Shown: positions 45,899-63,820 of the stretch, piece by piece | Position numbering within the stretch: the stretch's first letter is position 1 | Layout of the letters: every line of letters starts with the position of its first letter | Origin: Peristeroidobacter soli | Lineage (GTDB): Bacteria; Pseudomonadota; Gammaproteobacteria; Steroidobacterales; Steroidobacteraceae | Direction: 5' to 3' | Length of the DNA: 64,000 nt | NCBI RefSeq assembly: GCF_004138485.1 | Contig: NZ_ML142848.1 | Span: 1,090,640-1,154,639, forward strand | The notes under the pieces: model-generated | Told to the model about the DNA's origin: nothing | Seen by the model: only the letters and a program-made list of their open reading frames with translations | The model's database searches: none | Translations under genes and position numbers: made by a program

Positions 45899-46213
45899 AT
45901 GCATCCCACCCTCGCGTGTTCCCTCGTGCTGCTGGCATCGATCTCGATCGGCGGCTGCGCCCGTGCCCCGGTCGGCATCTATGCCGACGCCAGCGGTGCC
46001 ACCCGCTACGAGTTCAGATCCGACGGACAGGTCTTCATCTCCGTGCTGGGCACGACTGTCAGTGCCGCCTACGAAGCCAACCGCGACCGCATCCTCGTCA
46101 GCGGTCCGCAAGGCACGGTCGTACTGGTGCGCAAAGCAGACCGCCTGCAAGGACCGATGGGATTGGAGCTGCTGCCCCAACCCAAGCAACCCGCCGCCCC
46201 GCGCCGTGGCTAA
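45899..46213 (+). CDS. Small lipoprotein of unknown function
   Basis: A 104-aa lipoprotein, MHPTLACSLVLLASISIGGC (lipobox IGGC). The mature part is a short beta-rich domain (VGIYADASGATRYEFRSDGQ, VFISVLGTTVSAAYEANRD) with a Pro-rich tail. Its end overlaps the convergent gene at 46210 by four bases. No family recognised. Confidence 0.6.
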   Translation: MHPTLACSLVLLASISIGGCARAPVGIYADASGATRYEFRSDGQVFISVLGTTVSAAYEANRDRILVSGPQGTVVLVRKADRLQGPMGLELLPQPKQPAAPRRG

Positions 46214-47121
46214 CGAACGTTGCCGCACTGAGCGACGGCGGCGGCGCCCGAGGCGGGCAGCCGTTGTTGGAGCACGCTTTCCAGGCATCGCACCCAGTGC
46301 TGCATGCTGGCCGCCGGCTGATCCAGGCAGCTCTGCTGGGCTGGCAACCGCCCGGCGATCTGCTGGCCATACACCGTTCTCAAGCAATTGACGTACGGCT
46401 CGTCGATGCGCGCGGTGGCGGGATCTTGTGTGACTGGAGCGGTCGAGGAGGCGCAGGAAGCCGGCGTCCCCGGCACGACCACGCCGCCGACCTCAGGACA
46501 CGCGAACGGCTTGAGGGTCTGCTCCATCTGGCGCCAGAACTGGCCGGGCGCGCTCGACAGACAGCCCGCGCCCTCGCCGGGCTCGACCTGCCGTCGCAGA
46601 CAGCTCTCCAGCTCGTTCGGCTCGTTCTTGTTCACCACGCAAACGTTGGCGATGCGGGTCACCTCAGCGCCACCGCTCCGGCCGGCCGCTTGCCACAAGC
46701 AGGCGATGCGCTCGGTCTGCGCATCGCCGGCCGCGCGCAGCGGCGCTTCGAAGTACTTGCACAGGTCGCTGATGCCCTCCACCGGCATGTTCTCGCAGAC
46801 CAGATTGAATTTGTCCCCGGACGACGTGTTGTTCCAGATGTCGCGACCGGCGCCGAACAGATCGGAGAGCCAGCCGGTGAAACGGTTCCAGGTGCGCGCC
46901 ACGGGCCACGTCACGTTACGTCGCCACGCGTCGCTCGCGGCATCGCCGGCAGCCGAAGCAACGCTGCCGGTGATCTCGGCGACCGCCTGGCCCGCCAACT
47001 CCGGAGCTCGCTTGATGCAACTGCCGCCGGCGCCGAACAGCGTGAACACCACCGCGACCAGCAGGATGAGTTTGATCAGGCTCCAGGCCGCGCCTCCGCG
47101 GCTGTGTTCGCGGCTCGTCAT
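46210..47121 (-). CDS. Cysteine-rich membrane-anchored protein next to the AAA locus
   Basis: A 303-aa protein of unknown family. The ATG at 47121 is chosen (MTSREHSRGGAAWS); one hydrophobic segment (LIKLILLVAVVFTLFGAGGS) acts as signal anchor or uncleaved signal, and the rest should be periplasmic. About ten cysteines are spread through the mature part (VCENMP, DLCKYF, IACLWQ, NVCVVN, SCLRRQ, GCLSSA, FACPEV and more), suggesting several disulfides. It is divergent from the giant AAA gene with a 126-base gap, so shared regulation is possible. Confidence 0.55.
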   Translation of the reverse strand: MTSREHSRGGAAWSLIKLILLVAVVFTLFGAGGSCIKRAPELAGQAVAEITGSVASAAGDAASDAWRRNVTWPVARTWNRFTGWLSDLFGAGRDIWNNTSSGDKFNLVCENMPVEGISDLCKYFEAPLRAAGDAQTERIACLWQAAGRSGGAEVTRIANVCVVNKNEPNELESCLRRQVEPGEGAGCLSSAPGQFWRQMEQTLKPFACPEVGGVVVPGTPASCASSTAPVTQDPATARIDEPYVNCLRTVYGQQIAGRLPAQQSCLDQPAASMQHWVRCLESVLQQRLPASGAAAVAQCGNVR

Positions 47122-47247: not shown

Positions 47248-50200
47248 ATGTATCGCCACCAGGCGGCCACCCGGGCCGTCGTCATTGTATTCACAACGCT
47301 GGTTGCGTGGTTATGGGCCGCGCCGTCCGCGCATGCGCAATCGTTGTTCGCCAACCCGGTGGCGACCCAGATCGCGAAGAAACAGGTCGAAGCGCAGGAG
47401 CTGCGTTTCCTGTTGCAAACCAAGCAGATCAGCGCCCAAGACTATGAGGCCCGGCTGCAAAGTAACAAAGCGCAGATCGCGTTGTTACAGAAAGTGGTCT
47501 CGCGCATGTCCAAGGAACAACAGGCGGACGTCCGTGCCCAGACCAAGGCGGCCTACAACGACGGTATGGCGCAATTGAAGGAGTATCAGAAGCAGTACGT
47601 GGCACAGCAGCGCCAGCTGCAGGCCGAAGAACGGCAACGGCAGGCCGACGAAAAACGCCAGGCACAAGTAGCGGCCCAGGAACAAAAGCAGCTGGAACGC
47701 GAGGAACAGCAGCGTCAGCAACAAGCCGCGCGTGAAGCACAAGCTGCCGCTCAACGACAGCAGGCAGAAGAACGCCAAGCGCAGGCAGCGGAACAGAGAC
47801 GTTCGCAACAAGAGGAACAGCAGCGCCAGGCAGCCGAGCGACAGGCTCAACGCGAAGCGCAGCTCGCGGCCCAGCGTGAACAACAGGCAGCGACGCCAGT
47901 TCAGCAACCCCGCACCACGCCCTCGCCGCAAGTCGCCGCCTCGAAACAAAAGCAGGCGCCGCTCGCTCCGCCAGTATTCGCGCCGCCGCCTGAATCGTCC
48001 GGCTTCAACCTCGCTTATCTGTGGTTGCTGTTGATTCCAGTCGCCGGCGGCGCTTGTTTCATGTTCGTGAAGAGGCGCAAGCCGGCGCGCGCGGAGTTGT
48101 CGGCGCTCTCGGAGGAAGCAGGTTTCTCGGCGCTGCCCGAATTCGCTGCCGTGAAAGTGACGGCGACGCAACCCGCCCCATCAGTCGCAGCCGCCGCGGT
48201 GCCGACCCAATCCGGCGCCAGCGCCAAGGATCGTCTGCTCGCGCAACAGCGCGCGAAATATCAAGCCGCGATCACGGCGGCTACCGATCAGCTGACTCAA
48301 ACGCAACTGGCCTTGCAGGAACGCGCGGCAATTCCGGAGGCCATCCGACAGGATCTGCGTCGTATCGCCGCCATGGTTCAGAACACGGCCAGCCAGCTGA
48401 TGCGCGAACGTTATGCCAGCGTGCCCAAGGCGCTGCGCAATGCCGTCGTCCTGATGCCTTTCTTCCGGCGCTTCAAGCGCGCTGGCGGCGGCATGAAGAT
48501 CCTGATGTTGATCGGCCTGGTGTGGCTGGCGATGACTCTGCGCGCCGTCGCGCTCCAGACCAGCATCGTGATTCCGATCCTGATCTATGCGCTGGTGCTG
48601 GTGCCCATCATGTTCTTCTTCGAGCGGCGCGCGCAGATCAAGGCGCCAGTCTCCGCCTTGCAGAAGAGCGCGGCCACGCTGAAACATCCGATGCTGACTT
48701 ACTGCTATCCGGAGCAGGCCGCCAGCGCTCAGGGCACTTATCAATCGCTGCGAGTGAATGCAGCTCCGGAGCGCACAGTGCTCGAAGACGTGCCGTTCGC
48801 ACAGTTGCCGAACGATGTGAGCCCGCCGCCCGGCGGCTTCTTCCTCGCGTTCGGCGATATCGCCACGTATCGGCTGAACATCAGCGGCACGCTCGCCCTG
48901 GTCGATTCCAAACAAGGCAACGATCTGATGCGCCTGTACGGCGCCGTCTGGACCGAAGCGCTGACCAGACACGCCGGCGAGCTCGCGCCATTGCTCCAAC
49001 ACTTCACGCAGTACGGCCAACTGAAGTGGACCGAACAGCAGCAGCGCCAGGAGATCCCGCGACTGGAGAATCTGCTCGCCAAGGTGCGGCGGCTGGAGCA
49101 GATCTGGCGACCGGTGTACACCGCCGAAAAAGTGTTCGAGTTCCTGATCCGCCGCATCGATCTGTTCAACTTGCGTGACCGGGCCACGCCGCCGGGCCTG
49201 TTGCTGTACGGCTATGCCGGCAATGGCAAGGAATTTCTCGGCCGCAGGATCGCGGATTCCGTGTTCGGCCAGTTCGTGAAGCCGAGCGCCGAACAACTCG
49301 CCTCCGCCAAGGACATCAAGGAACTGTGGAGCGCGCACACGGGACGCGGCCCCACCGTGCTATTCATCGATCATGCGGATCACGTGTTTGCACGCCCCGG
49401 CTCCGAGCACGACAGTGCCGGCACCAAGGAAGCAGTCGCGGCGTGGCTCGAGCAATGGAGCAAACATGAAGCCGCGCTCACGAATGTCTGGGTCGTGCTG
49501 AGCGCGCAGAGCGAACAGAACCTGCATCCGCGCATGCTTGCTCAGCTCGGCAGTTCCAAGATCGAGATCGTCGCCCCCGACGCGGCGGGTCGTCAGATGG
49601 TGCTGCAGGCTGCGTGCCTGGAAAGCGAGTTGCCGGGCAAGCCCCCGCAGTGGGTCGCCGAGGGTGCCAGCGGTGCTTCCATTCGCGAGCTGCGCGAAAT
49701 CGTGCGCGAAACCAAGGTGCATTCGGTGCCCGACATACCCACCGATGAGCACTGGCGCGCTGCCGTGCGCACAGTGCGCGGTTCGGATGCGTCGTTCCGC
49801 GATGAAAGCAAAACCTGGAACCGGCTGGTGCTGCCGCCGGAGATCAAACAAGAGCTGCAACACGCTGCGCGAGTGTTGCGTGAAGCCGATCGCTATAAAG
49901 GCAAGGCCGACATTCCCAACATTCTCTTGTTCGGTCCGCCCGGCACCGGCAAGACCGACATCGCGCGCACCATTGCCAATGAAAGCGGCGTGAAGTTCAT
50001 TGAAGCCAAGACCGCCGACCTCAAGGCGCAGTACATGGGGCAATCGGCGCATTTGGTACGTGAACTGTTCAATCGCGCCCGCGCCAGCGCGCCCTGCGTG
50101 CTGTTCATCGATGAGATCGACGCCGTGGCGGTGAAGCGCGGCTCGGGCGATGCGTACACCAACGATATCGTCACCGAAATGCTGGCGCAGATGGAAGGCG

Positions 50201-53200
50201 CTCAGAAATCCGATCGCCCGGTGATCGTGCTGGCCGCGACCAATCACAAGGAACAGATCGATCCAGCCATCCTGCGGCGGTTCACTTACGAGTTCGAGAT
50301 TCCGCTGCCCGACGAGGCCGCGCGCGCCGAACTGCTCAAACGTTTCATCGCCGAGCGCCCGCTCGACCCGGCGCTGGACGTCGAAGAGATCGCCGCGTTC
50401 CTGGCCAAGCGACTCAACCGCAAGAGCGGCAGCGATCTGTCGATGCTGGTCAAGCGCGCCATGCAGCGTGCCGTGCGCGTCAGCAACTCGCCCGACGATG
50501 TGCGCCTGACTCGCGAGCTGTTGCTGGAAGAAGCGATGCCCAAAGGCAAGGAAGTCACCGATCAGGACTTGCAGCGTATCTGGAGTCAGATCGTGCTCAA
50601 GCCCGAGGTCAAGGAAGATCTGCTCGACAAGATTCGCATGTTCAACCGCGCCGACAAGGCGGCGCCCAAAGGCCTGCTGTTGTACGGGCCGCCGGGCACG
50701 GGCAAGACGGAGATCGCGCGCCGGATCGCCGACTCCGCGAGTTGTTTCTTCATGTCGCTCAAGGGCCCGGATCTCAAGGCGGGTTATATCGGCCAGAGTG
50801 GCGAGCGGGTCAAAAAGATCTGGGAACAGGCGCGCAGCCGCGGTCGCTGTGTGATCTTCGTCGATGAGTGCGAAGGCGTGTTCGCGCGCCGGGGCGGGAG
50901 CAACTCCGACTCGGCCTCCGAAGAGCTGGTGCAGGCGTTCCTCGCCGAATGGGATGGCGTCGGCACCGAAGACCAGCGCGTGTGGGTGATCGGTGCCACC
51001 AATCGCCGCGACCTGCTCGACGACGCCATCGTGTCGCGCTTCGGCGCGGACGTGCAGATCGATCTGCCGGGCGCGCCCCAACGAATCGAGATCCTGCGCC
51101 TGGAAATGGCCAAGCTGGAACGGCCGATGGAAATCCCCACCTTCCTCGGTCAGGCCACCACCGGTCTGTCCGGTCGCAACCTGGCGCGCGTCGCCAGCGA
51201 CGTGTGTACGCTCGCCAGCAAGAGCGGAGGTGTGATCACTGAAGCAATGTGGCGCGAAGTGTTGAATCGTCACGTCAAGGCCGGCAGCGAAGCCGTCGAT
51301 GAATCGGCGCGCTGGGATTCGCTGATCCTCGCCGATGAAACCCTGGCGAAGCTCAAAGGCGTATGCGAATCGTTGCGACACGTCGAAACATTGCGCGCGC
51401 AGGGCGTGCCGCCGCCGAAGGGCGCATTGCTCTACGGTCCGCCCGGCACCGGCAAGACGCAGATCGCGCGCACGCTCGCGAACGAGAGCGGTCTGCCGTT
51501 CATCGCCGCGTCCACCGCCGATCTGAAAGCAGGCTTCACGGGTCAGTCCGGCCAGAAAGTTCGCGAGCTGTTCGAGCGCGCGCGTGGCAAGGCGCCGTGC
51601 ATCCTGTTCATCGACGAGATCGACGCAGTCGCTCCAGCACGTGGCGGCGCCAACGCCGACCAGTTCACCATCGAGATCGTCAATCAGCTGTTGCAGGAGA
51701 TGGACGGCGTCAAGAAGACCGACCGCCACGTCTATGTGCTGGCGGCAACCAATCGACCCGAGGCGGTGGACGACGCGGTCCGTTCACGTCTGAAGGAAAC
51801 CATCGAGATCCCGAATCCCGATGCCCGCCTGCGGCAACGTTTGTTCCGCGTGTTCCTCGACAAGCTCAAGACCGACTTCGACATCGACGAGATGGCGGCG
51901 GAGCTGGCGCGACGGACCAACAACATCGGCGGACGCGCCATGTCGGCGATCGTCGAGAACGCGTCGCAAGAGGCGGTCAATCGCGCGATCCGTGCCGGCA
52001 CACCTGACAAGGTCGTACTGACTCGCGACGACCTGCTGCGCGAAGTCACTCCGCGCGGCAGGGAAGTGAGCGAGGCGGACCTGGCGAAGATCTGGGAGCG
52101 CATCGTGCTGGCGCCACAGATCAAGAGCGATCTGCTCGACAAGATCCGTCTGTTCAACGCCGCCGACAAAGCCGCCCCCAAGGGACTGTTGCTGTACGGA
52201 CCGCCGGGCACCGGCAAGACCGAGATCGCACGGCGCATCGCCGACTCGGCGAGCTGTCAGTTCATGTCGTTGAAGGGCCCCGATTTGAAAGCCGGCTATG
52301 TCGGTCAGAGCGGCGAGAAAGTGAAAAAGATCTGGGAGCAGGCGCGCGGGCGCGGGCGTTGTGTGATCTTCGTCGACGAATGCGAAGGCGTGTTCGCGAG
52401 GCGCGGCGGCAGCAACGCGGATGCCGCGTCGGATGAAGTCGTGCAGGCGTTCCTGGCCGAATGGGACGGCGTCGGCACCGAGGGGCAGCAGATCTGGGTG
52501 GTGGGCGCCACCAATCGTCGCGACTTGCTCGACGACGCCATCGTGTCACGCTTCGGCGCGGCCGTGCCGATCGACCTGCCCGGCCCTGCGGAACGGTTAC
52601 AAATATTGTCGTTGGAACTGGAAAAACTGGAGCGACCGAGTGCCGTTCCGGAATTTCTCGGCCAGGCCACGACAGGAATGTCGGGGCGCAATCTGTCGCG
52701 GCTGGCCAGCGAAGTGTGCACTCTCGCGAGCAAGGATGGCGGTCAGCTCACCGACGAATTGTGGCGCGAAGTTCTCAAACGCCACACGCAAGCGAGCAGC
52801 GAGGCCGTCGATCAAAGCGCGCGCTGGAGCTCGCTGGTGCTCGGCGATGACATCCTCGACAAGCTCAAGACCTTGTGCGAGTCGTTACGTCACAGCGAGG
52901 AATTCGCGGCCCAGGGTTTCGATATTCCCAAAGGCGCGCTGCTGTATGGGCCGCCCGGCACGGGCAAGACGCAGATCGCACGCACGCTGGCCAATGAGAG
53001 CGGCCTGACTTTCATCGCCGCGTCGACGGCCGACATGAAGGCCGGCTTCGTCGGGCAGTCGGGACAAAAGGTGCGCGAGCTGTTCGAACGTGCGCGCGGC
53101 AAGGCACCGTGCATCCTGTTCATCGACGAGATCGAGTCGGTTGCCTCGGCGCGCGGCGGCAGCAATGCGGATTCGTTCACCGGCGAGATCGTCACTCAGC

Positions 53201-53625
53201 TGCTGCAGGAAATGGATGGCGTGAAAAAATCCGAGCGCCCGGTCTTCGTGCTGGCCGCGACCAACCTTCGCGAACAGATCGATCCGGCGGTGCTGTCGCG
53301 CTTCGAGGAACAGATCAAGATCGGTCATCCCGATGCCGAACAGCGCAAACATCTGTTCACGTTGTTCCTGGGCAAGCTGCCGGCCGAGTTCGATCGCGCG
53401 TCGGTGGCGACGGAACTGGCGCAGGCCACGCACGACATCGGCGGGCGTGATATTCGCAACATCATTCAGAAGGCGTCGCAGAAGGCGATCCGGCGCGCGG
53501 GCGGCAATCCCAAGAACGTGAAATTGACACGCGAAGATCTGCTGAGCTCGCTGCCCACGCCGCCTCGTTCCGGCTCGCCGTCGCGGCCGGCTCAATCCCC
53601 GACGCCATCGGAGCTGAGACCATGA
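47248..53625 (+). CDS. Giant membrane protein with six tandem AAA modules in one chain
   Basis: A 2125-aa protein. The ATG at 47248 has GGGAG seven bases upstream and opens a signal peptide (cleavage near AHA-Q). Then: a short helical domain (35-85), a long Gln/Arg-rich coiled coil (about 85-225), TM1 (254-275, followed by KRRK), a helical region, TM2 and TM3 (about 416-459), and six AAA modules, which should be cytoplasmic. Walker A glycines are at residues 655, 896, 1147, 1397, 1651 and 1901. Modules 2-6 have GPPGTGKT, an intact DE Walker B, sensor-1 Asn (ATN) and a conserved Arg in the second region of homology. Module 1 is degenerate (GYAGNGKE; LFIDHAD near 705-711). Odd modules share VDECEGVFARRGG-type sequence; even modules share FIDEIDAV-type sequence. 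Classic p97/FtsH-like clade, without a protease domain. Probably a mechanical unfoldase or remodelling motor working with the next gene (inference). Confidence 0.85.
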   Translation: MYRHQAATRAVVIVFTTLVAWLWAAPSAHAQSLFANPVATQIAKKQVEAQELRFLLQTKQISAQDYEARLQSNKAQIALLQKVVSRMSKEQQADVRAQTKAAYNDGMAQLKEYQKQYVAQQRQLQAEERQRQADEKRQAQVAAQEQKQLEREEQQRQQQAAREAQAAAQRQQAEERQAQAAEQRRSQQEEQQRQAAERQAQREAQLAAQREQQAATPVQQPRTTPSPQVAASKQKQAPLAPPVFAPPPESSGFNLAYLWLLLIPVAGGACFMFVKRRKPARAELSALSEEAGFSALPEFAAVKVTATQPAPSVAAAAVPTQSGASAKDRLLAQQRAKYQAAITAATDQLTQTQLALQERAAIPEAIRQDLRRIAAMVQNTASQLMRERYASVPKALRNAVVLMPFFRRFKRAGGGMKILMLIGLVWLAMTLRAVALQTSIVIPILIYALVLVPIMFFFERRAQIKAPVSALQKSAATLKHPMLTYCYPEQAASAQGTYQSLRVNAAPERTVLEDVPFAQLPNDVSPPPGGFFLAFGDIATYRLNISGTLALVDSKQGNDLMRLYGAVWTEALTRHAGELAPLLQHFTQYGQLKWTEQQQRQEIPRLENLLAKVRRLEQIWRPVYTAEKVFEFLIRRIDLFNLRDRATPPGLLLYGYAGNGKEFLGRRIADSVFGQFVKPSAEQLASAKDIKELWSAHTGRGPTVLFIDHADHVFARPGSEHDSAGTKEAVAAWLEQWSKHEAALTNVWVVLSAQSEQNLHPRMLAQLGSSKIEIVAPDAAGRQMVLQAACLESELPGKPPQWVAEGASGASIRELREIVRETKVHSVPDIPTDEHWRAAVRTVRGSDASFRDESKTWNRLVLPPEIKQELQHAARVLREADRYKGKADIPNILLFGPPGTGKTDIARTIANESGVKFIEAKTADLKAQYMGQSAHLVRELFNRARASAPCVLFIDEIDAVAVKRGSGDAYTNDIVTEMLAQMEGAQKSDRPVIVLAATNHKEQIDPAILRRFTYEFEIPLPDEAARAELLKRFIAERPLDPALDVEEIAAFLAKRLNRKSGSDLSMLVKRAMQRAVRVSNSPDDVRLTRELLLEEAMPKGKEVTDQDLQRIWSQIVLKPEVKEDLLDKIRMFNRADKAAPKGLLLYGPPGTGKTEIARRIADSASCFFMSLKGPDLKAGYIGQSGERVKKIWEQARSRGRCVIFVDECEGVFARRGGSNSDSASEELVQAFLAEWDGVGTEDQRVWVIGATNRRDLLDDAIVSRFGADVQIDLPGAPQRIEILRLEMAKLERPMEIPTFLGQATTGLSGRNLARVASDVCTLASKSGGVITEAMWREVLNRHVKAGSEAVDESARWDSLILADETLAKLKGVCESLRHVETLRAQGVPPPKGALLYGPPGTGKTQIARTLANESGLPFIAASTADLKAGFTGQSGQKVRELFERARGKAPCILFIDEIDAVAPARGGANADQFTIEIVNQLLQEMDGVKKTDRHVYVLAATNRPEAVDDAVRSRLKETIEIPNPDARLRQRLFRVFLDKLKTDFDIDEMAAELARRTNNIGGRAMSAIVENASQEAVNRAIRAGTPDKVVLTRDDLLREVTPRGREVSEADLAKIWERIVLAPQIKSDLLDKIRLFNAADKAAPKGLLLYGPPGTGKTEIARRIADSASCQFMSLKGPDLKAGYVGQSGEKVKKIWEQARGRGRCVIFVDECEGVFARRGGSNADAASDEVVQAFLAEWDGVGTEGQQIWVVGATNRRDLLDDAIVSRFGAAVPIDLPGPAERLQILSLELEKLERPSAVPEFLGQATTGMSGRNLSRLASEVCTLASKDGGQLTDELWREVLKRHTQASSEAVDQSARWSSLVLGDDILDKLKTLCESLRHSEEFAAQGFDIPKGALLYGPPGTGKTQIARTLANESGLTFIAASTADMKAGFVGQSGQKVRELFERARGKAPCILFIDEIESVASARGGSNADSFTGEIVTQLLQEMDGVKKSERPVFVLAATNLREQIDPAVLSRFEEQIKIGHPDAEQRKHLFTLFLGKLPAEFDRASVATELAQATHDIGGRDIRNIIQKASQKAIRRAGGNPKNVKLTREDLLSSLPTPPRSGSPSRPAQSPTPSELRP
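50560..53583 (+). repeat. Two in-register 1512-bp units (two-AAA cassettes) inside the giant gene
   Basis: Unit A (about 50560-52071) holds AAA modules 3-4 and unit B (about 52072-53583) holds modules 5-6. Walker A codons of equivalent modules are both exactly 1512 bases apart (50686/52198 and 51436/52948), so no net insertion or deletion has occurred. Long stretches are near-identical in protein (for example KGALLYGPPGTGKTQIARTL). Modules 1-2 form a third, older and diverged copy. Confidence 0.85.
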
Positions 53626-53650: not shown

Positions 53651-54835
53651 ATGAATCAGCAACGACCTCCGCAATCGCCCCAGCAGCAACGGTCGCAGAC
53701 GCAATCGCGACCCGCGCCCGCGTCCACACCGACCGCGCCGGCAGCCGCTGATGTCACGAAGGCGGCGATGCCGCCGCCGGCATCGGCACCAGCGGCACCT
53801 GCCGCGAGCGGGCCAGTCGCCATCGAGCCTGTCGAAGGAGCAAACAACGATGCGTCGTTGAACTTCGAATGGCGCGTGGTGGAACTGAGCGGGAATCGAT
53901 CCTTCGGCTGCACGGTGAGCAGCGCGGCCGGTCATCCGATCAGCGTAAGGATCGAGCAGCTCTCGTATCAGAAAACATTGCGCGAGGACGGAGCGATCAC
54001 GATTGCCGTGATTCCCGCGGGCCCAGCCGGCACGCCGGGAAAATTGACCGCCCGCGACGAAGCCACCGGTGCGACGGCGGAATTCACCTGGCAATGGCAA
54101 CCTATCGGCAAGTCGAGCGGCGGTTCCGCGCTTGCATCGAAGCTGCTCAAGAAAGCAGCGCCGGCAAATGCTCCAGCCACGAAACAGGCGACGCGAAACG
54201 CGAAAGCAGCGGCTAAGAACAAGGCCGGCTCGGCAACCACCGCGTTCTTCGGTCAGCAGGCCAGTGGCCGACGCTTCGCGTTCATCCTCGACATGTCCGG
54301 CTCCATGGCGGGCACGCGTTGGGCGACGTGCACACGCGAGCTGTTCGCGTCGCTGCAGGCACTCACTTCGCAGGCACAGTTCTTCGTCGTGCTGTTTTCT
54401 TCCAGCGTCGCCGAGCCGCCGGGTCAGTCCGGCTGGATGGATGCGAGCGCGGACAACATCGCCTCGGTCGTCAACTGGATCTCCGGCATCCATCCCGACG
54501 GCGGCACGTATCCGAAGCCGGCGTTCGAACGCGTCTTTTCGCTGGGCGGCAAGCCCGACGCGGTTTACTTTCTCACCGACGGCGAGCTGTACGACTTCAC
54601 GCCGTCGGACGCCCAACGATTGCGAGACGGCGGCAGCACGTCGCTGTGGGGCTCGCTCGCGAGGTTCTTTTCTTTCTCGGGCAACGACAACGAAAGCACC
54701 GGCACGGTGATCAACACGATCTCCCTGGACGACCGTTCCAGCAGCAAAGCGCTGGAGACGATGGCCGAGGAGTCCGGCGGGCAGTACCTGCACATCTCAT
54801 CCAGCGACACGCCCGATCCGGAAGCCGGCGCCTAA
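53651..54835 (+). CDS. Cytoplasmic von Willebrand A (MIDAS) protein, partner candidate of the AAA protein
   Basis: A 394-aa protein. The ATG at 53651 follows a GGAG site, 25 bases after the AAA stop, so the two are almost certainly co-transcribed. Residues 1-60 are Pro/Gln/Ala-rich, and about 65-155 form a beta-sandwich-like domain (LNFEWRVVELSGNRSFGCTV). A low-complexity Ala/Lys linker precedes a VWA domain from about 205 (RRFAFILDMSGSMAGTRW), with the MIDAS motif DMSGS at 214-218 and a later acidic metal position in YFLTDGELYDF. No signal peptide. AAA-VWA pairs such as RavA-ViaA and MoxR-linked systems use the VWA protein as substrate or metal adaptor. Confidence 0.85.
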   Translation: MNQQRPPQSPQQQRSQTQSRPAPASTPTAPAAADVTKAAMPPPASAPAAPAASGPVAIEPVEGANNDASLNFEWRVVELSGNRSFGCTVSSAAGHPISVRIEQLSYQKTLREDGAITIAVIPAGPAGTPGKLTARDEATGATAEFTWQWQPIGKSSGGSALASKLLKKAAPANAPATKQATRNAKAAAKNKAGSATTAFFGQQASGRRFAFILDMSGSMAGTRWATCTRELFASLQALTSQAQFFVVLFSSSVAEPPGQSGWMDASADNIASVVNWISGIHPDGGTYPKPAFERVFSLGGKPDAVYFLTDGELYDFTPSDAQRLRDGGSTSLWGSLARFFSFSGNDNESTGTVINTISLDDRSSSKALETMAEESGGQYLHISSSDTPDPEAGA

Positions 54836-54971: not shown

Positions 54972-55610
54972 TCACTTCTTCGCGGCTGCTTTCTTCTTGG
55001 CAGCGCCGCCGGCCTTCTTCTTCGGCGCGGCAGTCTTCTTGGCAGACTTCTTCGCGGCGGCAGCCTCGACCTTCTTCGCCTTGGCGGCGGCCTTGGTCTC
55101 GGCCTTGGCCTTCTTCTCGGCCTTCTCAGCGTCGGACTTCACGGCCTTCTTGGTCACGCGCTTGGAAGCGGCCTTCTTCTTGGAAGCAGCCTTCTTCTTC
55201 GGTGCGGCCTCTTCGCCTTCGGTCGACGGAGCGGCTTCGGCATCGGCCAGCTCTGGCTGATCCAGCAGCTGCATGAGCGCCATCTCAGCGGCATCGCCCG
55301 GACGCGGGTTCATGCGCAGGATGCGGGTGTAGCCGCCCGGACGCGTCTGGAAGCGGGGGCCAAGCGTTTCAAACAGCTTCACGACCACTTCGGCGTCGCG
55401 CAGCAGGGAGAACGCACGGCGGCGGTTGGCATCGCTGTCGTCCTTGCCGAGCGTGATCAACGGCTCGACCACACGACGCAATTCCTTGGCCTTCGGCACC
55501 GTGGTGCGGATGGTCTCGTGACGCAGCAGCGAGGCCGCCATGTTACGGAGCATCGCCTGGCGATGCGGGGCATTGCGGCTGAGCTGCCGGCCGGAGAGTT
55601 GGTGACGCAT
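54972..55610 (-). CDS. rplQ: Ribosomal protein bL17 with long basic C-terminal extension
   Basis: A 212-aa protein. The first 115 residues are standard bL17 ([20 protein letters not shown] ... [20 protein letters not shown]). They are followed by about 95 extra residues: a short acidic piece ([13 protein letters not shown]) and then Lys/Ala repeats ([13 protein letters not shown] and similar). Such histone-H1-like tails can contact rRNA or nucleic acid; whether it is retained on the ribosome is unknown. Last gene of the alpha operon. Confidence 0.95.
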
Positions 55611-55632
55611 TGTTCTAGGTCCTTACACAGAA

Positions 55633-55657
55633 CCGGGGCTCACATCGTGAGCCCCGG
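55633..55657 (-). other. Hairpin in the rpoA-rplQ gap
   Basis: Perfect 11-bp stem CCGGGGCTCAC-ATC-GTGAGCCCCGG. No U-tract follows on the minus strand, so it is more likely an RNA processing or stability element, or an attenuator that lowers rplQ expression, than a full terminator. Confidence 0.55.
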
Positions 55658-55666
55658 GTTTAGTCT

Positions 55667-56671
55667 TTAGATGACGTCTCTATCGTCATCGCGCTTGAGG
55701 CTGACCGGCGGCCAGTTGTCCAGGCGCATGCCGAGCGACAGGCCGTGGCTCTCCAGGACTTCCTTGATCTCGGTGAGCGACTTCTTGCCGAGGTTCGGAG
55801 TACGGAGCAGCTCCACTTCGGTCCGCTGCACGAGATCGCCGATGTAATGGATGTTCTCGGCCTTCAAGCAGTTCGCGCTGCGAACCGTGAGCTCGAGCTC
55901 GTCCACCGGACGCAACAGGATCGGATCGAACTGCTGCTCGGCAGCCTTCGACGCGCCCTCGTCCTGGCCCTGCAGATCCACGAACACCGACAGCTGATCC
56001 TTCAGGATCGAACCGGCGCGGCGAATGGCTTCTTCCGCATCGATCGTGCCGTTGGTCTCGATGTCCAGGATCAGCTTGTCCAGGTTCGTGCGCTGCTCGA
56101 CGCGCGCGCTCTCGACCGTGTAGGTCACGCGGCGGATCGGGCTGAACGACGCATCGAGCTGCAGACGGCCGATCGGGCCGCTGGACTCTTCGAACGTGGC
56201 GCGCTGGATGGCCGGACGGTAACCGCGGCCGCGCTCCACTTTGAGCGTCATATTCAGTTCACCAGCCTTCGTCAGATTCGCGATCACGAGGTCGGTGTTC
56301 AGCACTTCCACGTCGTGGTCGAGCTGGATGTCGCCCGCGGTCACGGGGCCCGGGCCCTTCTTGTGGAGGCGCAGCTCGGTCTCTTCACGCGCGTTCAAGC
56401 GGATCGCGACCTGCTTCAGATTCAACAAAATGTCGACGACGTCTTCCTGCACGCCCTCGATGCTGGTGTACTCATGGAGCACGCCATCGATCTCCGCTTC
56501 GGTGATCGCGCAGCCCGGCATGGAAGACAACAGCACGCGGCGCAGGGCGTTACCCAGCGTGTGTCCGAAGCCGCGCTCAAACGGCTCGATCACGACTTTC
56601 GCCTGCTTGGCGGTCGTGGGAGTCACTTTGACGACGCGAGGCTTCAGGAATTCGCCAACGGATGCCTGCAT
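55667..56671 (-). CDS. rpoA: RNA polymerase alpha subunit
   Basis: A 334-aa subunit that nucleates RNA polymerase assembly. The N-terminal dimerisation domain ([20 protein letters not shown]) and the C-terminal DNA/activator-binding domain ([34 protein letters not shown]) are both complete. It lies between rpsD and rplQ as in the canonical alpha operon. Confidence 0.98.
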
Positions 56672-56772
56672 GGACCATTCACCTGTTTAGGTAAGTGTTG
56701 GGGATAAATCAGATATCGATCCCCGGAAGATATGGGCTGGAGGCGGATTTAACATCCGCCCCCAACGCAAAC

Positions 56773-57396
56773 TTATTTCGAATACAACTCGACCACGAGG
56801 TTCTCGTTGATCTCGGGCAGAATCTCTTCGCGGTCGGGCAGCTGCTTGAACGTGCCGGTAAATTTCTTCTCATCGACCTCAACCCATGCCGGGAACCCGA
56901 CCTGGGACTTGATCTGCAACGCGGTCTGGATGCGCAGCTGCTTCTGCGCCTTGTCACGAACCGCGATCACGTCGCCGGCGCTGCACTGGTACGAAGGGAT
57001 GTTCACCACTTCGCCATTCACCGAGATCGACTTGTGGCTGACCAGCTGACGGGCTTCGCTGCGCGTGGCGGCGAATCCCATGCGGTAGACCACGTTGTCG
57101 AGACGGCCTTCCAGGAGCTGCAACAGGGTCGAACCCGTCGCGCCCGGACGACCGGTGGCCTTGATGTAGTAGTTGCGGAACTGTCTTTCAAGGACGCCGT
57201 ACATGCGGCGCAGCTTCTGCTTCTCGCGCAGCTGCAGGCCGTAGTCGGACAAACGACCACGACGCTCACCCTTGATGCCGCCCGGCGGCACTTCCAGCTT
57301 GCACTTCGATTCCAGCGACTTGACGCCGCTCTTCAAGAACAAGTCGGTGCCTTCGCGGCGGGACAGCTTGCACTTCGGACCAAGATAACGAGCCAT
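56773..57396 (-). CDS. rpsD: Ribosomal protein uS4
   Basis: A 207-aa small-subunit assembly protein that binds 16S rRNA early and, in E. coli, represses the alpha operon by binding its mRNA leader. Family start [20 protein letters not shown]; the S4 RNA-binding domain ([20 protein letters not shown]) is complete. No zinc-binding CxxC is present at the N-terminus beyond the single Cys, as in the zinc-free type. Confidence 0.97.
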
Positions 57397-57416
57397 GCGA
57401 CTTCCTTAGCGACGCG

Positions 57417-57830
57417 TCAGACGCGGCGCTTTTTGGGCGGACGGCAGCCGTTGTGCGGGATCGGCGTGACGTCGGAAATGTTTGTAATCTTCAGACCGCA
57501 GGCGTTGAGCGCGCGGACAGCGGACTCGCGGCCCGGGCCGGGGCCCTTGACGCGCACTTCCACCATCTTCACGCCGTGCTCCTGAGCGGCGGTGCCGGCC
57601 TTCTCGGCGGCAACCTGTGCGGCGAACGGCGTGCTCTTACGCGAACCGCGGAAACCGCAACCACCGCTGGTCGCCCACGACAGGGTGTTGCCCTGACGAT
57701 CGGTGATCGTGACGATGGTGTTGTTGAACGACGCGTGCACGTGGGCAATCGCATCGGTCACATGCTTTTTGACCTTCTTGCGAGCGCCACCCTTGGCGCC
57801 GCCCTGGCCCTGTTGCTTCTGTTCAGCCAT
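57417..57830 (-). CDS. rpsK: Ribosomal protein uS11
   Basis: A 137-aa 30S platform protein. Core: [20 protein letters not shown], then SAGG-equivalent [20 protein letters not shown] and the C-terminal [12 protein letters not shown] short Gln/Gly/Lys-rich N-terminal tail makes it a few residues longer than E. coli S11. It starts nine bases after rpsM ends. Confidence 0.97.
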
Positions 57831-57839
57831 AACTATCTC

Positions 57840-58220
57840 TTAGGCCTTGCCGGCCGGGGTGTTCATCTTCACCGCCGCCTTACGCGGACCCTTACGGGTG
57901 CGGGCGTTGGTGCGCGTACGCTGACCACGCAGCGGAAGGCCACGGCGATGACGGATGCCGCGGTAGCAACCGAGGTCCATCAAACGCTTGATGTTCATGG
58001 ACACTTCGCGGCGCAGGTCGCCTTCGACGGTGAGCTTGCCGATCGCCGAACGCAGCGCAGCCACTTCCGCGTCGGTGAGGTTCTTCACCAGCGTGTTCAG
58101 CTTGACGCCCGCGGTCTCACAGGCCTTCTGAGCCTGAGTGCGGCCAATACCGTAGATATGTGTGAGGCCAACCCACACATGCTTGTTCATCGGAATGTTG
58201 ACGCCGGCAATGCGAGCCAT
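57840..58220 (-). CDS. rpsM: Ribosomal protein uS13
   Basis: A 126-aa head protein of the 30S subunit that contacts the 50S subunit and P-site tRNA. Family start [20 protein letters not shown]; the conserved [20 protein letters not shown] segment is present. First gene of the alpha operon after a 189-base leader that follows rpmJ. Confidence 0.97.
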
Positions 58221-58223
58221 CTG

Positions 58224-58409
58224 CGGACTACTCCCCGCGACGAAAAGCGCGGAACTTTAAACTAAAAAACCCAGTAACTCAATGCTTTAAAAAGATCTAA
58301 AGCGCGTCTCGAGCAGCCGTCCCTGGAGCCTCGGCCAGCCCGTACCTCCGTGTACGGTCGTTCGGCCGGCGCGACGACACGTTAAGTGTCCTCGCGAAGA
58401 CATCCGGCC
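58224..58409 (-). promoter_or_regulatory. Leader region of the alpha operon
   Basis: 186 bases between rpmJ and rpsM, longer than any other gap in this cluster. It contains an imperfect hairpin built on CCGTAC (58340-58345) and GTACGG (58352-58357), flanked by GGCC arms, and an A/T-rich stretch (about 58255-58295) that could hold a promoter. In E. coli the equivalent region carries the S4 repression pseudoknot; I cannot prove that structure here. Confidence 0.4.
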
Positions 58410-58523
58410 TCACCCCTGACGCTGCTTATGTCGCGCGTCGGAGCAGATTACGTACACCACGCGGCGGCGGCGCACGACCTTGCAGTTCTTGCAGATCTTC
58501 TTGACTGATGCACGGACCTTCAT
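58410..58523 (-). CDS. rpmJ: Ribosomal protein bL36
   Basis: A 37-aa protein, found by reading the minus strand between secY and rpsM. It starts [20 protein letters not shown] and ends [12 protein letters not shown]. The zinc-binding pattern is C-x2-C at CKNC, then a later Cys and His (ICSDARH), so this is the zinc-containing form. Conserved position directly after secY. Confidence 0.95.
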
Positions 58524-58568
58524 GACTCACTCCCGCGGATCGCTCACGCGCCCGCCATCAAATGCTGA

Positions 58569-59915
58569 CTAATTCTGCTGACCCGGGCGGCCGTAACCGC
58601 GCAGATTGGCCTTTTTCATCAGGCCCTCGTACTGGTGCGACATGAGGTGTGCCGCGACCTGCGCCTGGAAGTCCATGATCACCACCACCATGATCAGCAG
58701 CGAGGTACCACCGAAGTAGAACGGCACGCTGAAGCGCGAGATCAGGAACTCAGGCAGCAAGCAGACGATGGTCACGTACAGCGCACCCCACACCGTCAAC
58801 CGCGTCAGCACCTTGTCGATGTACTCACCGGTCTGCTGACCCGGGCGGATGCCCGGAATGAAGGCGCCCGACTTCTTCAGGTTCTCCGCGGTCTCGCGCG
58901 AGTTGAACACCAGCGCGGTGTAGAAGAAGCTGAAGAAAATGATCAGACCGCCGTACAGGATCATGTGTGCCGGCTGACCCGGGGTCAGCGCCGCGGACAC
59001 GTTCTGCAGCCAGGCGAAATTGCCCGAGCTGCCGCCCCAGCTGGCGATCGTCGCCGGAAACAGCAACAGGCTGGAGGCGAAGATCGGCGGAATCACGCCC
59101 GACATGTTCAACTTGAACGGCAGGTGAGTGCTCTGACCGGCGTACAGACGACGGCCCTGCTGACGCTTCGCGTAGTTCACCTGGATACGACGCTGGCCGC
59201 GCTCCACGAACACCACGAACGCGGTCACCGCGATCACCATGATGAACAGCACCAGCGCCAGCGCCGCGTTGATTTCACCGGTGCGCACCAGTTCCAAAGT
59301 ACCGCCGATAGCCGCGGGCAAGCCCGCCACGATACCGGCCAGAATGATCATCGAAATGCCGTTGCCCAGACCGCGCTCGGTGATCTGCTCGCCCAGCCAC
59401 ATCAGGAACATGGTGCCGGCGATCAGCGTCATGGTCGCGACGAACACGAACTGCGGACCCGGCTGCAACACCACGCCCTGATTCTGGAACGCGATCGACG
59501 CCGAAGCGCCCTGCACCGCCGCCAGAATCACCGTGCCGTAACGCGTGTACTGCGTCAGCTTGCGACGGCCCGACTCGCCTTCCTTCTTGATCGCGGCCAG
59601 CGACGGCACGACCACCGCCATCATCTGAATGATGATGGACGCGGAGATGTAGGGCATGACGCCCAGCGCGAAGATCGACAGGCGTTGCAGCGCGCCGCCC
59701 GAGAACATGTTGAAGATGTCCAGGATGGTGCCCTTCTGCTCCTGGAAGAAGCGGGCGAGCGCCACCGGGTCGATACCCGGCGCTGGAATGAACGTGCCGA
59801 TGCGATACACGATCAACGCGCCCAGCAAGAAGAACAACCGCTGTCGCAGCTCTGCGAAGCGGGTCATCTCGCCGAAGGCGGACAGAGACGCAGCGGTGGC
59901 GGGTTTGGTGGCCAC
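58569..59915 (-). CDS. secY: Preprotein translocase subunit SecY
   Basis: A 448-aa channel-forming subunit of the Sec translocon with ten membrane helices. Family segments: [20 protein letters not shown], the plug and early helices ([20 protein letters not shown]), [16 protein letters not shown], the cytoplasmic loop [16 protein letters not shown], and the C-terminal [20 protein letters not shown]. Its cargo would include the many exported proteins in this window. Confidence 0.97.
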
Positions 59916-59965
59916 GGAGTCCTTGTCGTTCAGTGAATCGTTACGATCGCGGCGTCAGAGGCTGC

Positions 59966-60430
59966 TTACTTGGCAGCCTCGAGCGCTTCGATCTTGCCGC
60001 CAGCCGCCTCGATGGCAGCCTTGGCGCCCTTGGTCAGGTGCACGCCCTTGATGGTCACGGCGCGGCTGATACCACCCGACAACACGATGCGTGCACGCTG
60101 GGCGAACTCCGGCACCAGGTTGGTGGCGCGCAGGACGTCCAGATCAATGACGTCGCCTTTGACCTTTGCAAGCTCCGACAGGCGCACTTCGGCGACGGTC
60201 GGGGCAATCCTGGAGCGGAAGCCGAACTTCGGCAGCCGGCGCTGGAGGGGCATCTGGCCGCCTTCGAAGCCGACCTTGTGATAACCACCCTTACGGGCGC
60301 GCTGACCCTTCACGCCGCGGCCGCAGGTCTTACCCTGGCCGGCGGAAGCGCCGCGACCGACGCGCAGACGCGTCTTCTTGCTGCCCGGAGCGGGCGAAAT
60401 TTCATTGAGGCGCATGGTTTCGGTACTCAT
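59966..60430 (-). CDS. rplO: Ribosomal protein uL15
   Basis: A 154-aa 50S assembly protein. Residue 6 ([20 protein letters not shown]) matches the common family start, so the first five residues are optional. The Gly/Arg-rich N-terminal extension ([20 protein letters not shown]) and the globular C-terminal domain are complete. The start overlaps the rpmD stop by one base. Confidence 0.96.
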
Positions 60431-60624
60431 TAGCCCTTCACCTCTTCGACTTTCAGCAAGTGGCGCGAGGCGCTCAGCATGCCGCGAATTTCCGGCGTGT
60501 CCGACACAGTCACGGTGTCACGAATCCGGCGCAGACCCAGACCGCGCACGGTGGCGCGATGAGCCTTGAGCTGGCCGAAGACGCTCTTCACGAGCGTGAC
60601 CTTGTAGCCCTTGTTGCTTGCCAT
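60430..60624 (-). CDS. rpmD: Ribosomal protein uL30
   Basis: A 64-aa 50S protein ([40 protein letters not shown]). Short bacterial type. The TAATG overlap with rplO couples their translation. Confidence 0.96.
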
Positions 60625-60668
60625 GACGACTTCCTACTTCTATGAGGGCGCGTGAGTGATCGCCGGGC

Positions 60669-61175
60669 TCAGCCCAGGATCTCTTCCACGCGCTTGCCAC
60701 GCTTCGCCGCGATGTCATCGGGCGACTGCGCGCTGTTCAACGCATTCATCGTGGCGCGCACGATGTTGATCGGGTTACGCGAGCCGTAGCTCTTCGCGAG
60801 CACGTTGCGCACGCCGGCACACTCGAACACGGCGCGCATGCCGCCGCCCGCGATCAAGCCGGTACCGTCGGCGGCCGGCTGCATGAACACGCGTGTTGCG
60901 CCGTGACGGCCGTGCACCGCGAAGTGCAACGTCGCGTTCTTCAGCGACACGTTCGACAGGTTCTTGCGGGCCGCCTGCATCGCCTTCTGGATCGCGACCG
61001 GCACTTCACGCGCCTTGCCGTAACCGAAGCCGACCTTGCCGCGTCCGTCGCCGACCACGGTCAGCGCGGTGAAGCCGAACTGACGGCCACCCTTCACGAC
61101 TTTGGCGACGCGATTCACCGCGACGAGCTTTTCGATGTACTCGTCGCCCGCCTGGTTCTTTTCAACTCTTGCCAT
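60669..61175 (-). CDS. rpsE: Ribosomal protein uS5
   Basis: A 168-aa 30S protein involved in decoding fidelity and mRNA unwinding. The S5 double-stranded-RNA-binding fold ([40 protein letters not shown]) and C-terminal domain ([20 protein letters not shown]) are complete. Confidence 0.97.
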
Positions 61176-61186
61176 GGGTGTCTCTC

Positions 61187-61537
61187 TTAGAATTCCAGAC
61201 CGTTTTCACGCGCGGCATCGGCCAGCGCCTTGATACGACCGTGGAACTTGAAGCCGGAACGATCGAAGGCCACTTTCGTGATGCCCTTCGCCTTGGCACG
61301 CTCGGCAATTGCCTTGCCGACGGCGGCAGCGGCAGTCGAATTGCCGGTGCCTGTCAAACCCTCGCGCACGTCCTTCTGCAAGGTCGACGCCTGCGCCAGC
61401 ACCTTCGACTCGGTGTCGAAGATCTGCGCGTAGATGTGCTGAGACGTGCGATGCACCGACAGCCGCAGAACCTTCAGTTCGCGGATCTTGGCGCGAGCGC
61501 GGATCGCGCGGCGCAGTCGTTGAGCATTTTTGTTCAT
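61187..61537 (-). CDS. rplR: Ribosomal protein uL18
   Basis: A 116-aa 5S-rRNA-binding protein of the 50S central protuberance ([59 protein letters not shown]). Confidence 0.97.
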
Positions 61538-61604
61538 AAATAAAATCTCTAAAAAGTAACCGTTGCACCCTGGTATTCCATTCGGAACCCAGCGGCGCCG
61601 ATGT

Positions 61605-62141
61605 TTACTTCTTCTTGGCTTCCTTCAGTTCGATCTTCTCGCCGGCATAGCGCACGCCCTTGCCCTTGTACGGCTCCGGCGGACGGAACGCGCGGATGTC
61701 GGCACAGACCTGGCCGAGCTTCTGCACGTCCGAACCCTTGACCAGAATTTCGGTCTGGCTCGGCGTTTCGATCGTGATGCCCTCGGGCGCCGTGTAGACG
61801 ACCGGGTGCGAGAACCCCAGCGTGAGGTTCAGGTTCTTGCCCTGCGCAGCGGCGCGGTAACCGACGCCGACCAGCTCGAGCTTGCGCTCATAGCCCTTGC
61901 TGACACCGAGCACGATGTTCGCCAGGTGCGCGCGCGTCGAGCCCGCGACCATGTCGGCTTCGCGACCGTCGTTGGCCTTCTCGACCTTGAGCGTCGAGGC
62001 GTCCTGCACCACTTTCACCAAGCGGGCATTGAGCGCGAGGCTCAGCGTGCCCTTCGCGCCTTTGACGCTGATGGCGTCGGCGCTGATGGTGGCGGTCACG
62101 CCTTGCGGCAGTGGGACCGGCTGTTTTGCTACTCGAGACAT
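61605..62141 (-). CDS. rplF: Ribosomal protein uL6
   Basis: A 178-aa protein near the factor-binding site of the 50S subunit. Two repeated L6 domains are visible; the C-terminal one holds the conserved [20 protein letters not shown]. The end is Lys-rich. Confidence 0.97.
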
Positions 62142-62156
62142 TGCTGTGCGTCCCTA

Positions 62157-62552
62157 TTAGGAAACGACGCAGATGACTTCGCCGCCGTGGCCCGCAGCGC
62201 GTGCCTGGCGATCGGTCATCACGCCCTTAGACGTGGAAACGATGGCAATACCCAGTCCGCCCAGGATGGAAGGCAGCTCGTCCTTCCCCTTGTAGACGCG
62301 CAGGCCGGGGCGGCTGATGCGCTCCAGGCGGTCGATGACCGGGCGGCCCTGGTAGTACTTCAGCTGTACCGCCAGCGTCGGCTTGCCCTCGACGTCGGTT
62401 GCGGAGAAATCTTCGATATAGCCTTCGTCCTTCAGCACCTTGGCAATCGCGACCTTCACCTTGGAAGTCGGCGCGTTGATTTCGGCTTTGCCAGAAGACT
62501 GCCCGTTACGAATACGGGTCAGGAAGTCGGCGATCGGATCCGTCATGCTCAT
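62157..62552 (-). CDS. rpsH: Ribosomal protein uS8
   Basis: A 131-aa 16S-rRNA-binding assembly protein ([20 protein letters not shown]; the C-terminal [20 protein letters not shown] and VICVVS). In E. coli it also represses the spc operon by binding the rplE mRNA start; I did not attempt to fold that site here. Confidence 0.97.
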
Positions 62553-62579
62553 TTATGCGTGCTCCAGAGGTACCAGCTG

Positions 62580-62885
62580 TTACCAGCTGGCCATGCCGAG
62601 GCCCGGAATTTCGCCGCGCATGGTCGCTTCGCGCAGCTTGGTGCGGCCCAATCCGAACTTGCGGTAGAAACCGCGCGGACGGCCGGTGATTGCGCAGCGA
62701 TTACGCTGGCGGCTCTTGCTCGAGTCGCGCGGCAGAGCCTGCAACTGAGCGACAGCAGCTTCGCGTTCTGCCGGCGTGGAAGTCGGCTTGCGAATGATCT
62801 CTTTCAGCTTCGCGCGCTTGGCGGCGTAGCGCTTGACGAGCTTCGCACGCTTTTCTTCGCGATTGACCATCGATGTCTTGGCCAT
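62580..62885 (-). CDS. rpsN: Ribosomal protein uS14 (zinc-free type)
   Basis: A 101-aa 30S protein of the long, zinc-independent form: the CxxC pairs of the short type are absent. The core [20 protein letters not shown] and the end [18 protein letters not shown] are standard. Confidence 0.97.
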
Positions 62886-62901
62886 AACCTAACTCCCGCC
62901 G

Positions 62902-63447
62902 TTACTTGCGGAACGGAAAATTGAACGCTTCCAGCAACGCGCGGCCGGACTTGTCGTCCTTGGCGGTCGTGGTGATCGTGATGTCCATGCCCCGGATCGC
63001 ATCGATCTGGTCGTATGCGATTTCCGGGAAGATGATCTGTTCCTTGACGCCGAAGTTGTAGTTGCCCTGGCCGTCGAAGGAGCGCGCGCTCACACCGCGG
63101 AAGTCGCGGATACGAGGCATCGCGATGCTCACCAGACGATCCAGGAACTCATACATGCGCGCGCCGCGCAGAGTCACCTTGGCGCCGATCGCGAGACCGT
63201 CGCGGACCTTGAAGGTCGCAACCGACTTGCGCGCGCGCGTCACCAACGGCTTCTGACCGGTGATCTTGGTGAGATCGCCGACCGCGTTGTCCATGATCTT
63301 CTTGTCCGCGACCGCTTCGCCGACGCCCATGTTGACCGTGATCTTGGTGATCTTCGGCACTTCCATGACGTTCGCGAGGCCCAGCGTCTCTTTGAGCTGG
63401 GACACGATCGTGTCGCGGTAATACTGTTCGAGTCTTGCCTTAGCCAT
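62902..63447 (-). CDS. rplE: Ribosomal protein uL5
   Basis: A 181-aa protein of the 5S rRNA complex (start [20 protein letters not shown]; middle [21 protein letters not shown]-terminal [20 protein letters not shown]). Confidence 0.97.
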
Positions 63448-63495
63448 CTTCGTTTAACCTTTGTGGACCCGCTCCGACGCCCATATCTATGGACA

Positions 63496-63810: not shown

Positions 63811-63820
63811 GACCCAACTC

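Follow-up and report, generated by a model that had tools for sequence, protein, structure and literature searches.

A single bacterial chain with six classic AAA modules in Peristeroidobacter soli: a candidate membrane-anchored, self-closing ring

The window analysed here is a stretch of 64,000 nt from Peristeroidobacter soli, order Steroidobacterales (NCBI RefSeq assembly GCF_004138485.1, contig NZ_ML142848.1, positions 1,090,640 to 1,154,639 of the forward strand). It carries a gene (47248–53625, + strand) for one chain of 2125 residues with six AAA modules arranged as three A-B pairs; membrane segments precede the modules and a gene for a protein with a VWA domain follows. We propose, tentatively and with a little under even confidence, that the chain is a membrane-anchored AAA remodeller whose three A-B pairs close into a pseudo-hexameric ring. 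Otherwise, six AAA modules within a single chain are known from very large proteins of eukaryotes, dynein and midasin among them. Their six-in-a-row plan is built here from a different type of motor, and one chain by itself may form a ring that pulls proteins.

Six AAA modules in one open reading frame

The frame runs from the ATG at 47248 without an internal stop codon, and its N-terminal residues MYRH are also found in Steroidobacter sp. MAG-237. The Pfam AAA profile (PF00004) matched six stretches of the chain (whole-chain E 1.4e-197). When the modules were cut apart each was still matched far beyond chance, with E values from 1.5e-11 for module 1 (M1) to 4.9e-40 for M2, and all six, at 45–137 bits each, exceeded the curated cut-off of 21.2. 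The Walker A glycines are residues 655, 896, 1147, 1397, 1651 and 1901, with a spacing of 241–254. A preliminary description of this DNA had placed six modules in one chain of 2125 residues with exactly these glycines and this spacing, and had called five modules complete and the first devoid of the Walker A Thr and the Walker B Glu; the intact frame and our reading of the motifs agree with it. The Walker A motif, Walker B Glu, sensor Asn and arginine finger are complete in M2–M6, and the same five modules have an aromatic pore loop, K-A-x-[YF]-x-G-Q-S.

The preliminary description mentioned neither the VWA gene next door nor the alternation of two types of module, in the order A-B-A-B-A-B. 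The complete A-type modules, M3 (50518–51282) and M5 (52018–52788), have the motifs KKIWEQA, FVDECEG and FLAEWDG. The B-type modules, M2 (49768–50517), M4 (51283–52017) and M6 (52789–53535), all complete, have FIDEI and a [LQ]Q[ED]M motif ahead of the sensor strand. M1 (49045–49767) is a degenerate module of the A type; all six are on the + strand. Within the chain M3 and M5 are 78% identical and M4 and M6 68%. In a tree of modules the A types, the M1s and the A modules of a plasmid-encoded relative (see below) form one group (support 0.999). The M1s, the M2s and the M3/M5s each cluster among themselves, and the M4s and M6s are intermixed with low support.

The longest exact DNA repeats inside the genes are 29 bases in the window and 33 bases in the relative from genome G086, so assembly collapse is unlikely. 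An artefactual module count was also considered, and is ruled out by the stop-free frame, by repeats of no more than 29 bases and by the same six-module plan in a second genus.

The modules are of the classic clade

By sequence, all six modules belong to the classic clade. The preliminary description had called them so, and a separate profile search of each against AAA families, in which every module matched PF00004, upholds it. M2–M6 show no helix-2 insert: when M4 is aligned with FtsH-like and Cdc48-like modules nothing is inserted behind the pore loop, and the same holds when M2–M6 are aligned with one another. M2, M4 and M6 pass the cut-off of 22 of the dynein-related profile AAA_5 at 26–28 bits, more than 100 bits below PF00004.

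Among NCBIfam models, those for CDC48, FtsH and proteasome-activating nucleotidase match M2–M6 about equally, and none matched M1 at E 1e-8. The chain as a whole is not covered by any one family in NCBIfam or PADLOC. Summed over the whole chain, scores reach 698 for FtsH (cut-off 600), 606 for IetA (510) and 703 for proteasome-activating nucleotidase (500), and the best single modules score 175, 150 (149.6) and 167 bits, respectively. The whole-chain scores are sums over repeats and therefore do not place the protein in FtsH, IetA and similar families; no single module reaches the 510 bits of the IetA model (NF042959). The CDC48 model (TIGR01243) is missed even when five stretches are summed (729.2 of 802.65 bits), and M2–M6 best fit its second half (from position 451). 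The protease motif HEXXH of FtsH (TIGR01241) is absent from the eight sequences checked, two of which are incomplete. We take IetA to pair with the protease IetS in the IetAS defence system; no IetS-like protease was seen among eight neighbour genes scanned. Two-module classic AAA proteins lead the sequence matches, including those among solved structures.

Module 1 is degenerate and under purifying selection

M1 reads GYAGNGKE and FIDHAD at the Walker motifs, so that the Walker A Thr and the catalytic Glu are gone. Pore loop 1, where six residues are deleted, has gone as well, together with the sensor Asn and the arginine finger. The Walker A Thr, Walker B Glu and pore loop 1 are missing from M1 in all five genomes found to hold the gene.

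Selection was estimated between P. soli and MAG-237 for M1, M2, M3, M5 and M6; M4 was left out, being cut by a contig end in MAG-237. M1 gives dN 0.045 and dS 1.058 (dN/dS about 0.04), and M2, M3, M5 and M6 give dN 0.021–0.041 and dS 0.589–0.815. The ratio is 0.03–0.07 across the five modules, a rough figure as dS of 0.6–1.1 is high. The protein sequence of M1 changes slightly faster than that of the four live modules measured and its ratio lies within their range, so the dead module is maintained by strong purifying selection. Decay of the gene is ruled out by the ratios of the five modules.

Relatives of the gene

A profile of the membrane hairpin region that precedes the modules found the gene in five of 396 sampled genomes of the order, P. 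soli included, and an independent A-module profile (E 1e-50) found the identical five; both scans scored only part of the first-look candidates, and further carriers may have been missed. In the other family concerned two of five genomes are positive, both among these five. A sample of the class gave one positive in 369, P. soli itself, and of 13 further genomes of the genus only G008 was positive, which is apparently MAG-237, its coordinates being those of L009. The gene is thus rare and patchily distributed. Weak matches in G016, G019, G023 and G033 (E 8e-7 to 3.5e-4) were not counted; three of them overlap the N-terminal coil described below, and none is among the five genomes.

MAG-237 emerged from a scan of named genomes, with best segments 86 and 92% identical; the scan also gave a distant archaeal Cdc48-like protein. 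There are six modules in P. soli, six in MAG-237 (over two contigs), six in G086, four in G076 and at least three in G014, where the contig ends in M3. The MAG-237 gene is split between L009 and L010, one contig ending and the other starting inside M4, and module counts from metagenome bins need caution. The chain is present once in its own genome. No second six-module gene was seen there, the other 16 matches being partial and in shorter open frames (123 to 1020 aa, those listed 439–1020 aa). Another contig of this genome has a run of AAA matches in frames of 510–1020 aa (G000:C2:474676-482768).

The N-terminal 589 residues had no match in plasmids. Two Geminicoccaceae plasmids, p1 and p2, each encode a single A-B protein (WGF90971.1, 746 aa, and WGF91092.1, 744 aa) and, among the best 30 of 1296 matches of this protein to plasmids, only these two reach at least 80% coverage. 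The module types and their order are the same as in the chain, the A-to-B spacing is 247 (238–250 in the family), and the p1 copy is 40–46% identical to the family units compared in A and 49–51% in B. The plasmid protein differs in having one pair only, with an intact A module, and homology of its N-terminus to the hairpin region of the window protein was undetected by hhalign (probability 0.1%). Its gene lies between a RepC-like gene and one for a VirB11-like ATPase (L012:7227-9467, L013:7233-9467). Nearby are genes annotated as VirB3 or resembling VirB6/TrbL and TraG, the TrbL and TraG models being matched below their cut-offs. The plasmid protein has hydrophobic segments, and might serve a type IV secretion system as an additional AAA motor. 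In viral contigs, the A-module scan found no relative among 133 stretches, and scans with A-B and B gave ordinary AAA proteins (at least 30 loci; best 80 of 204 matches).

Possible arrangement of the modules

In the arrangement that we favour, one chain would hold its three A-B pairs side by side, as a pseudo-hexameric ring under the inner membrane. M2–M6 would bind and hydrolyse ATP and their aromatic pore loops would pull polypeptide through the centre, so that substrates would be pulled or unfolded near that membrane. M1, attached to the membrane hairpin, would be a hard-wired dead seam with neither hydrolysis nor pore loop nor arginine finger. A closed ring would place M1 between M6 and M2, where the absence of its finger would impair one adjacent site, and the loss of its pore loop would leave five gripping loops. 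By comparison with NorQD and midasin, the VWA neighbour would probably be a substrate adaptor. On the usual view, AAA rings operate with a moving seam occupied by one subunit, and in substrate-bound AAA spirals one subunit is off the substrate. If the proposal is true, M1, whose Walker B Glu and pore loop are permanently gone (in four of the five genomes the arginine finger too), would fix the seam, and each site could be changed singly without the engineered linking of subunits. It would also mean that AAA machines with six modules in one chain had a further origin, apart from the dynein/midasin clade; the relatives with two, four and six modules would form a series for testing the evolution of such rings.

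Closure of the ring by a single chain is plausible. The proposal as a whole draws support from the five complete modules with their pore loops, from the losses in M1 combined with purifying selection on it, and from the partner gene that adjoins the AAA gene at all four intact right ends. In a four-module model made with AlphaFold2 the linkers are 8 coil residues from B to A (H499-506, H515-522) and 9 from A to B (H238-252, short helix 262), the predicted local distance difference test (pLDDT) of inter-module linkers being under 50. Walker-to-Walker spacing is 238–254 in the family, compared with 267, 273 and 288 in three Cdc48-like two-module proteins. Because the linkers are equal and short, and a double ring of stacked modules would call for a long return from B to A, the modules may lie side by side. 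The history of the repeats also bears on the question. Constrained trees of eight units were compared by the approximately unbiased (AU) test, with a single ancestral duplication of M3M4 to M5M6 as the hypothesis. This duplication is rejected on the A modules (p 0.0017) and on A and B together (p 0.004). Two lineages thus seem to have arrived at six modules independently, from a four-module ancestor like the G076 version.

Several results weigh against this proposal, and some of them suit other arrangements better. The G076 version has four modules in 1617 aa and its stop codon is well within the contig; no further A-type module was found in G076 at E 1e-50, 7 of its 40 candidates having been scored. 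Because it has four modules, this protein is not a one-chain hexamer. G076 is also the one genome of the five in which an Arg is kept at the finger position of M1. The AU test on the B modules alone does not reject the ancestral duplication (p 0.38), so it is possible that gene conversion homogenised the A modules and mimicked independent duplication. The partners encoded beside the gene in G086 and G076, two of the four, have a hydrophobic-basic end with no VWA domain seen, and we infer an interaction between partner and AAA chain from the adjacency of their genes alone. Two AlphaFold2 runs with shallow alignments, one for M3–M5 (13 rows) and one for M3–M6 (11 rows), gave a mean pLDDT of 81.9 and 80.4 and a predicted template modelling score (pTM) of 0.42 and 0.35. 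AlphaFold2 folds the modules in these models yet leaves their mutual arrangement unfixed, since pTM is low. M4 of the models superposes on FtsH-type ATPase structures at 1.7–2.9 Å. Comparison of the models weakly favours A stacked on B. M3–M4 of the three-module model superposes on Rix7 and on several D1-D2 chains of p97/Cdc48 with a root mean square deviation of 6.1–6.9 Å over 463–494 residues, and that of the four-module model fits only two Rix7 entries (7.2 and 7.6 Å). Neither dynein nor Rea1 is among the 50 matches listed, and neither is thereby excluded, chains of more than 3,000 residues being outside the comparison.

The A-B pair might accordingly be a protomer like D1-D2 of Cdc48/Rix7, its A module stacked upon its B module, in which case the chain would be a covalent trimer and two chains a double-ring dodecamer; three chains of the four-module relative and six of the plasmid protein would be needed. 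We consider this unlikely. One, two and three pairs all divide six, and the four modules of G076, as three chains of two pairs, suit stacking better than a self-ring. M4–M5 fits two-module chains poorly (about 12–19 Å) next to the resemblance of M3–M4 to D1-D2, and Foldseek TM-scores with the p97 chains 9yrc_B and 9yrc_C are 0.60–0.61 (target length); two-module classic AAA proteins also head the sequence matches. However, an 8-residue linker from B to A seems too short to climb two ring heights, and at both kinds of junction the spacing falls short of that in the three Cdc48-like proteins. The A modules look unlike D1, given that M2–M6 all best match the second half of the CDC48 model, and with so low a pTM the network may reproduce a remembered arrangement.

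Alternatively, there might be no fixed ring, the modules lying in an open arc, a filament or a string of beads, or they might contribute to a ring together with other AAA proteins, with the number of A-B repeats drifting freely. The variation of that number between two genomes of the same genus (G076 has four modules and G086 six), the low pLDDT of the linkers and the pTM of 0.35 are in line with this; the arginine fingers and pore loops, which work between or within closed rings, are nevertheless kept in M2–M6, and dN is 0.02–0.04 in M2, M3, M5 and M6, so we regard it as distinctly improbable. It is very unlikely that the chain belongs to the FtsH, IetA, Cdc48 or proteasome-ATPase family, has been enlarged by recent duplication and has the usual function of that family. 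The whole-chain scores above several of the family cut-offs would fit such a member, but they are only sums over repeats and single modules give at most 175 bits. HEXXH and an IetS-like protease are missing from the sequences and neighbours examined and the CDC48 cut-off is unreached. Two families of the order have forms with at least three modules and a common non-AAA part, and for this reason the chain is not a fresh artefact. Taken together, the self-closing ring put forward in the preliminary description, with the first module as its seam, is partly sustained: the equal, short linkers and the apparent double arrival at six speak for it, and the low-pTM models, the stacked-like A-B pair and the four-module relative against it. 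The fuller proposal is that of a classic-clade six-module self-ring with a dead seam and a tripled A-B pair, reached at least twice and served by a VWA partner, as a convergent inner-membrane counterpart of midasin; we regard this as possible and somewhat doubtful.

Comparison with known systems

Midasin (Rea1, Mdn1) and the dynein heavy chain likewise have six AAA modules per chain, some of them inactive; in Rea1, a passage of PMC6286127 describes AAA1 and AAA6 as lacking Walker B. The dynein–midasin and MoxR proteins are assigned in part of PMC7159879 to the helix-2-insert clade, in contrast with the classic-clade modules found here. Rea1 has VWA and its metal-ion-dependent adhesion site (MIDAS) within the system, whereas here VWA is encoded by a separate adjacent gene in two genomes and is absent in two relatives. 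The present chain has membrane segments and no linker or stalk was seen in it; its ring is a proposal.

Cdc48/p97, Rix7/NVL and Drg1/Afg2 are also of the classic clade and are the closest sequence matches of solved structure, and the predicted A-B pair resembles their D1-D2. They have two modules, compared with six or four here, where the junctions are shorter, membrane segments are present and the first module is dead. The FtsH, m-AAA and i-AAA proteases likewise have a classic AAA module behind membrane segments; the present chain differs in lacking HEXXH and in having six modules. Pairs of a MoxR gene and a VWA gene with MIDAS (NorQ/NorD, RavA/ViaA and ternary systems) resemble the present locus in that an AAA gene adjoins a VWA gene, and PMC13036017 includes an account of a VWA finger that enters the AAA pore in NorQD. 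The AAA proteins of these systems are of the MoxR class and separate subunits, unlike the classic modules in one chain described here. A classic AAA protein (FtsH) is mentioned in a section of PMC7159879 as an extra component beside a MoxR-vWA couple. Among the open-licence papers listed by literature searches, none described a bacterial classic AAA protein with six modules in a single chain. The claim of novelty in the preliminary description accords with this and with the lack of an NCBIfam or PADLOC family for the chain.

The membrane-associated N-terminal part

Hydropathy gives a signal-like segment (residues 6–28), one transmembrane segment (256–274) and a double peak at about 418–458 that we read as a transmembrane hairpin. 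The preliminary description had counted three N-terminal helices; the hydrophobic N-terminal part stands, and the number of hydrophobic segments is four. All of the following are on the + strand. Residues 1–30 (47248–47337) would be a signal peptide or a first transmembrane segment. A coil rich in Gln, Ala, Glu and Arg (residues 89–235, 47512–47952) comes next, ahead of the transmembrane segment (48013–48069). From the charges, judged by eye, we tentatively place the coil in the periplasm and the modules in the cytosol. The hairpin (residues 413–462, 48484–48633; alignment and hydropathy) is followed by a region (48634–49017), conserved in the alignment, that lies between it and M1.

The hairpin region can be aligned in all five genomes, and its first helix exceeds the hydropathy threshold only in P. 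soli, G076 and G014. The part ahead of the hairpin is alike in P. soli and MAG-237, has a different sequence in G076 and is lacking in G086.

The partner gene and its neighbourhood

The partner gene (53651–54835, +) begins 25 nt past the AAA stop codon and encodes 394 aa from a probable ATG at 53651. Its product has a Pro/Gln-rich tail, a small conserved domain of about 80 residues (53858–54103, +), which looks beta-rich by eye and had no match in Pfam, and a VWA domain (54278–54787, +; Pfam VWA_3, 1.1e-9) with the MIDAS set DxSxS...T...D (DMSGS, T, D). A partner gene adjoins the AAA gene in all four genomes with an intact right end, and the small domain is common to all four. VWA is fused to it in two of them, P. 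soli and MAG-237, and the G086 and G076 partners share just the small domain with the window protein (E 2e-10 and 1e-4). As VWA occurs in only two of the four, the conserved partner would be the small domain and VWA an addition. Between P. soli and MAG-237 the partner gene has dN 0.118 and dS 0.877.

On the other side of the AAA gene lies a divergent gene (46210–47121, −) whose product has, by eye, a hydrophobic N-terminus and a Cys-containing tail. It had no match in Pfam, NCBIfam or PADLOC and, among the loci compared, recurs only in MAG-237 (74% identical); it is possibly a further component of the system. The four-module gene of G076 is flanked by genes for a hydrophobic Cys-containing protein and a glycine-zipper/SH3 protein (L145:2999-3622 (−) and 9682-10494 (−)), neither of which recurs in the other loci compared. 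Beside the AAA and VWA genes, the window continues at 54972–63985 (−) with what we take to be the rplQ-rpoA end of the ribosomal protein operon, and the same genes lie downstream of the AAA/VWA pair in MAG-237.

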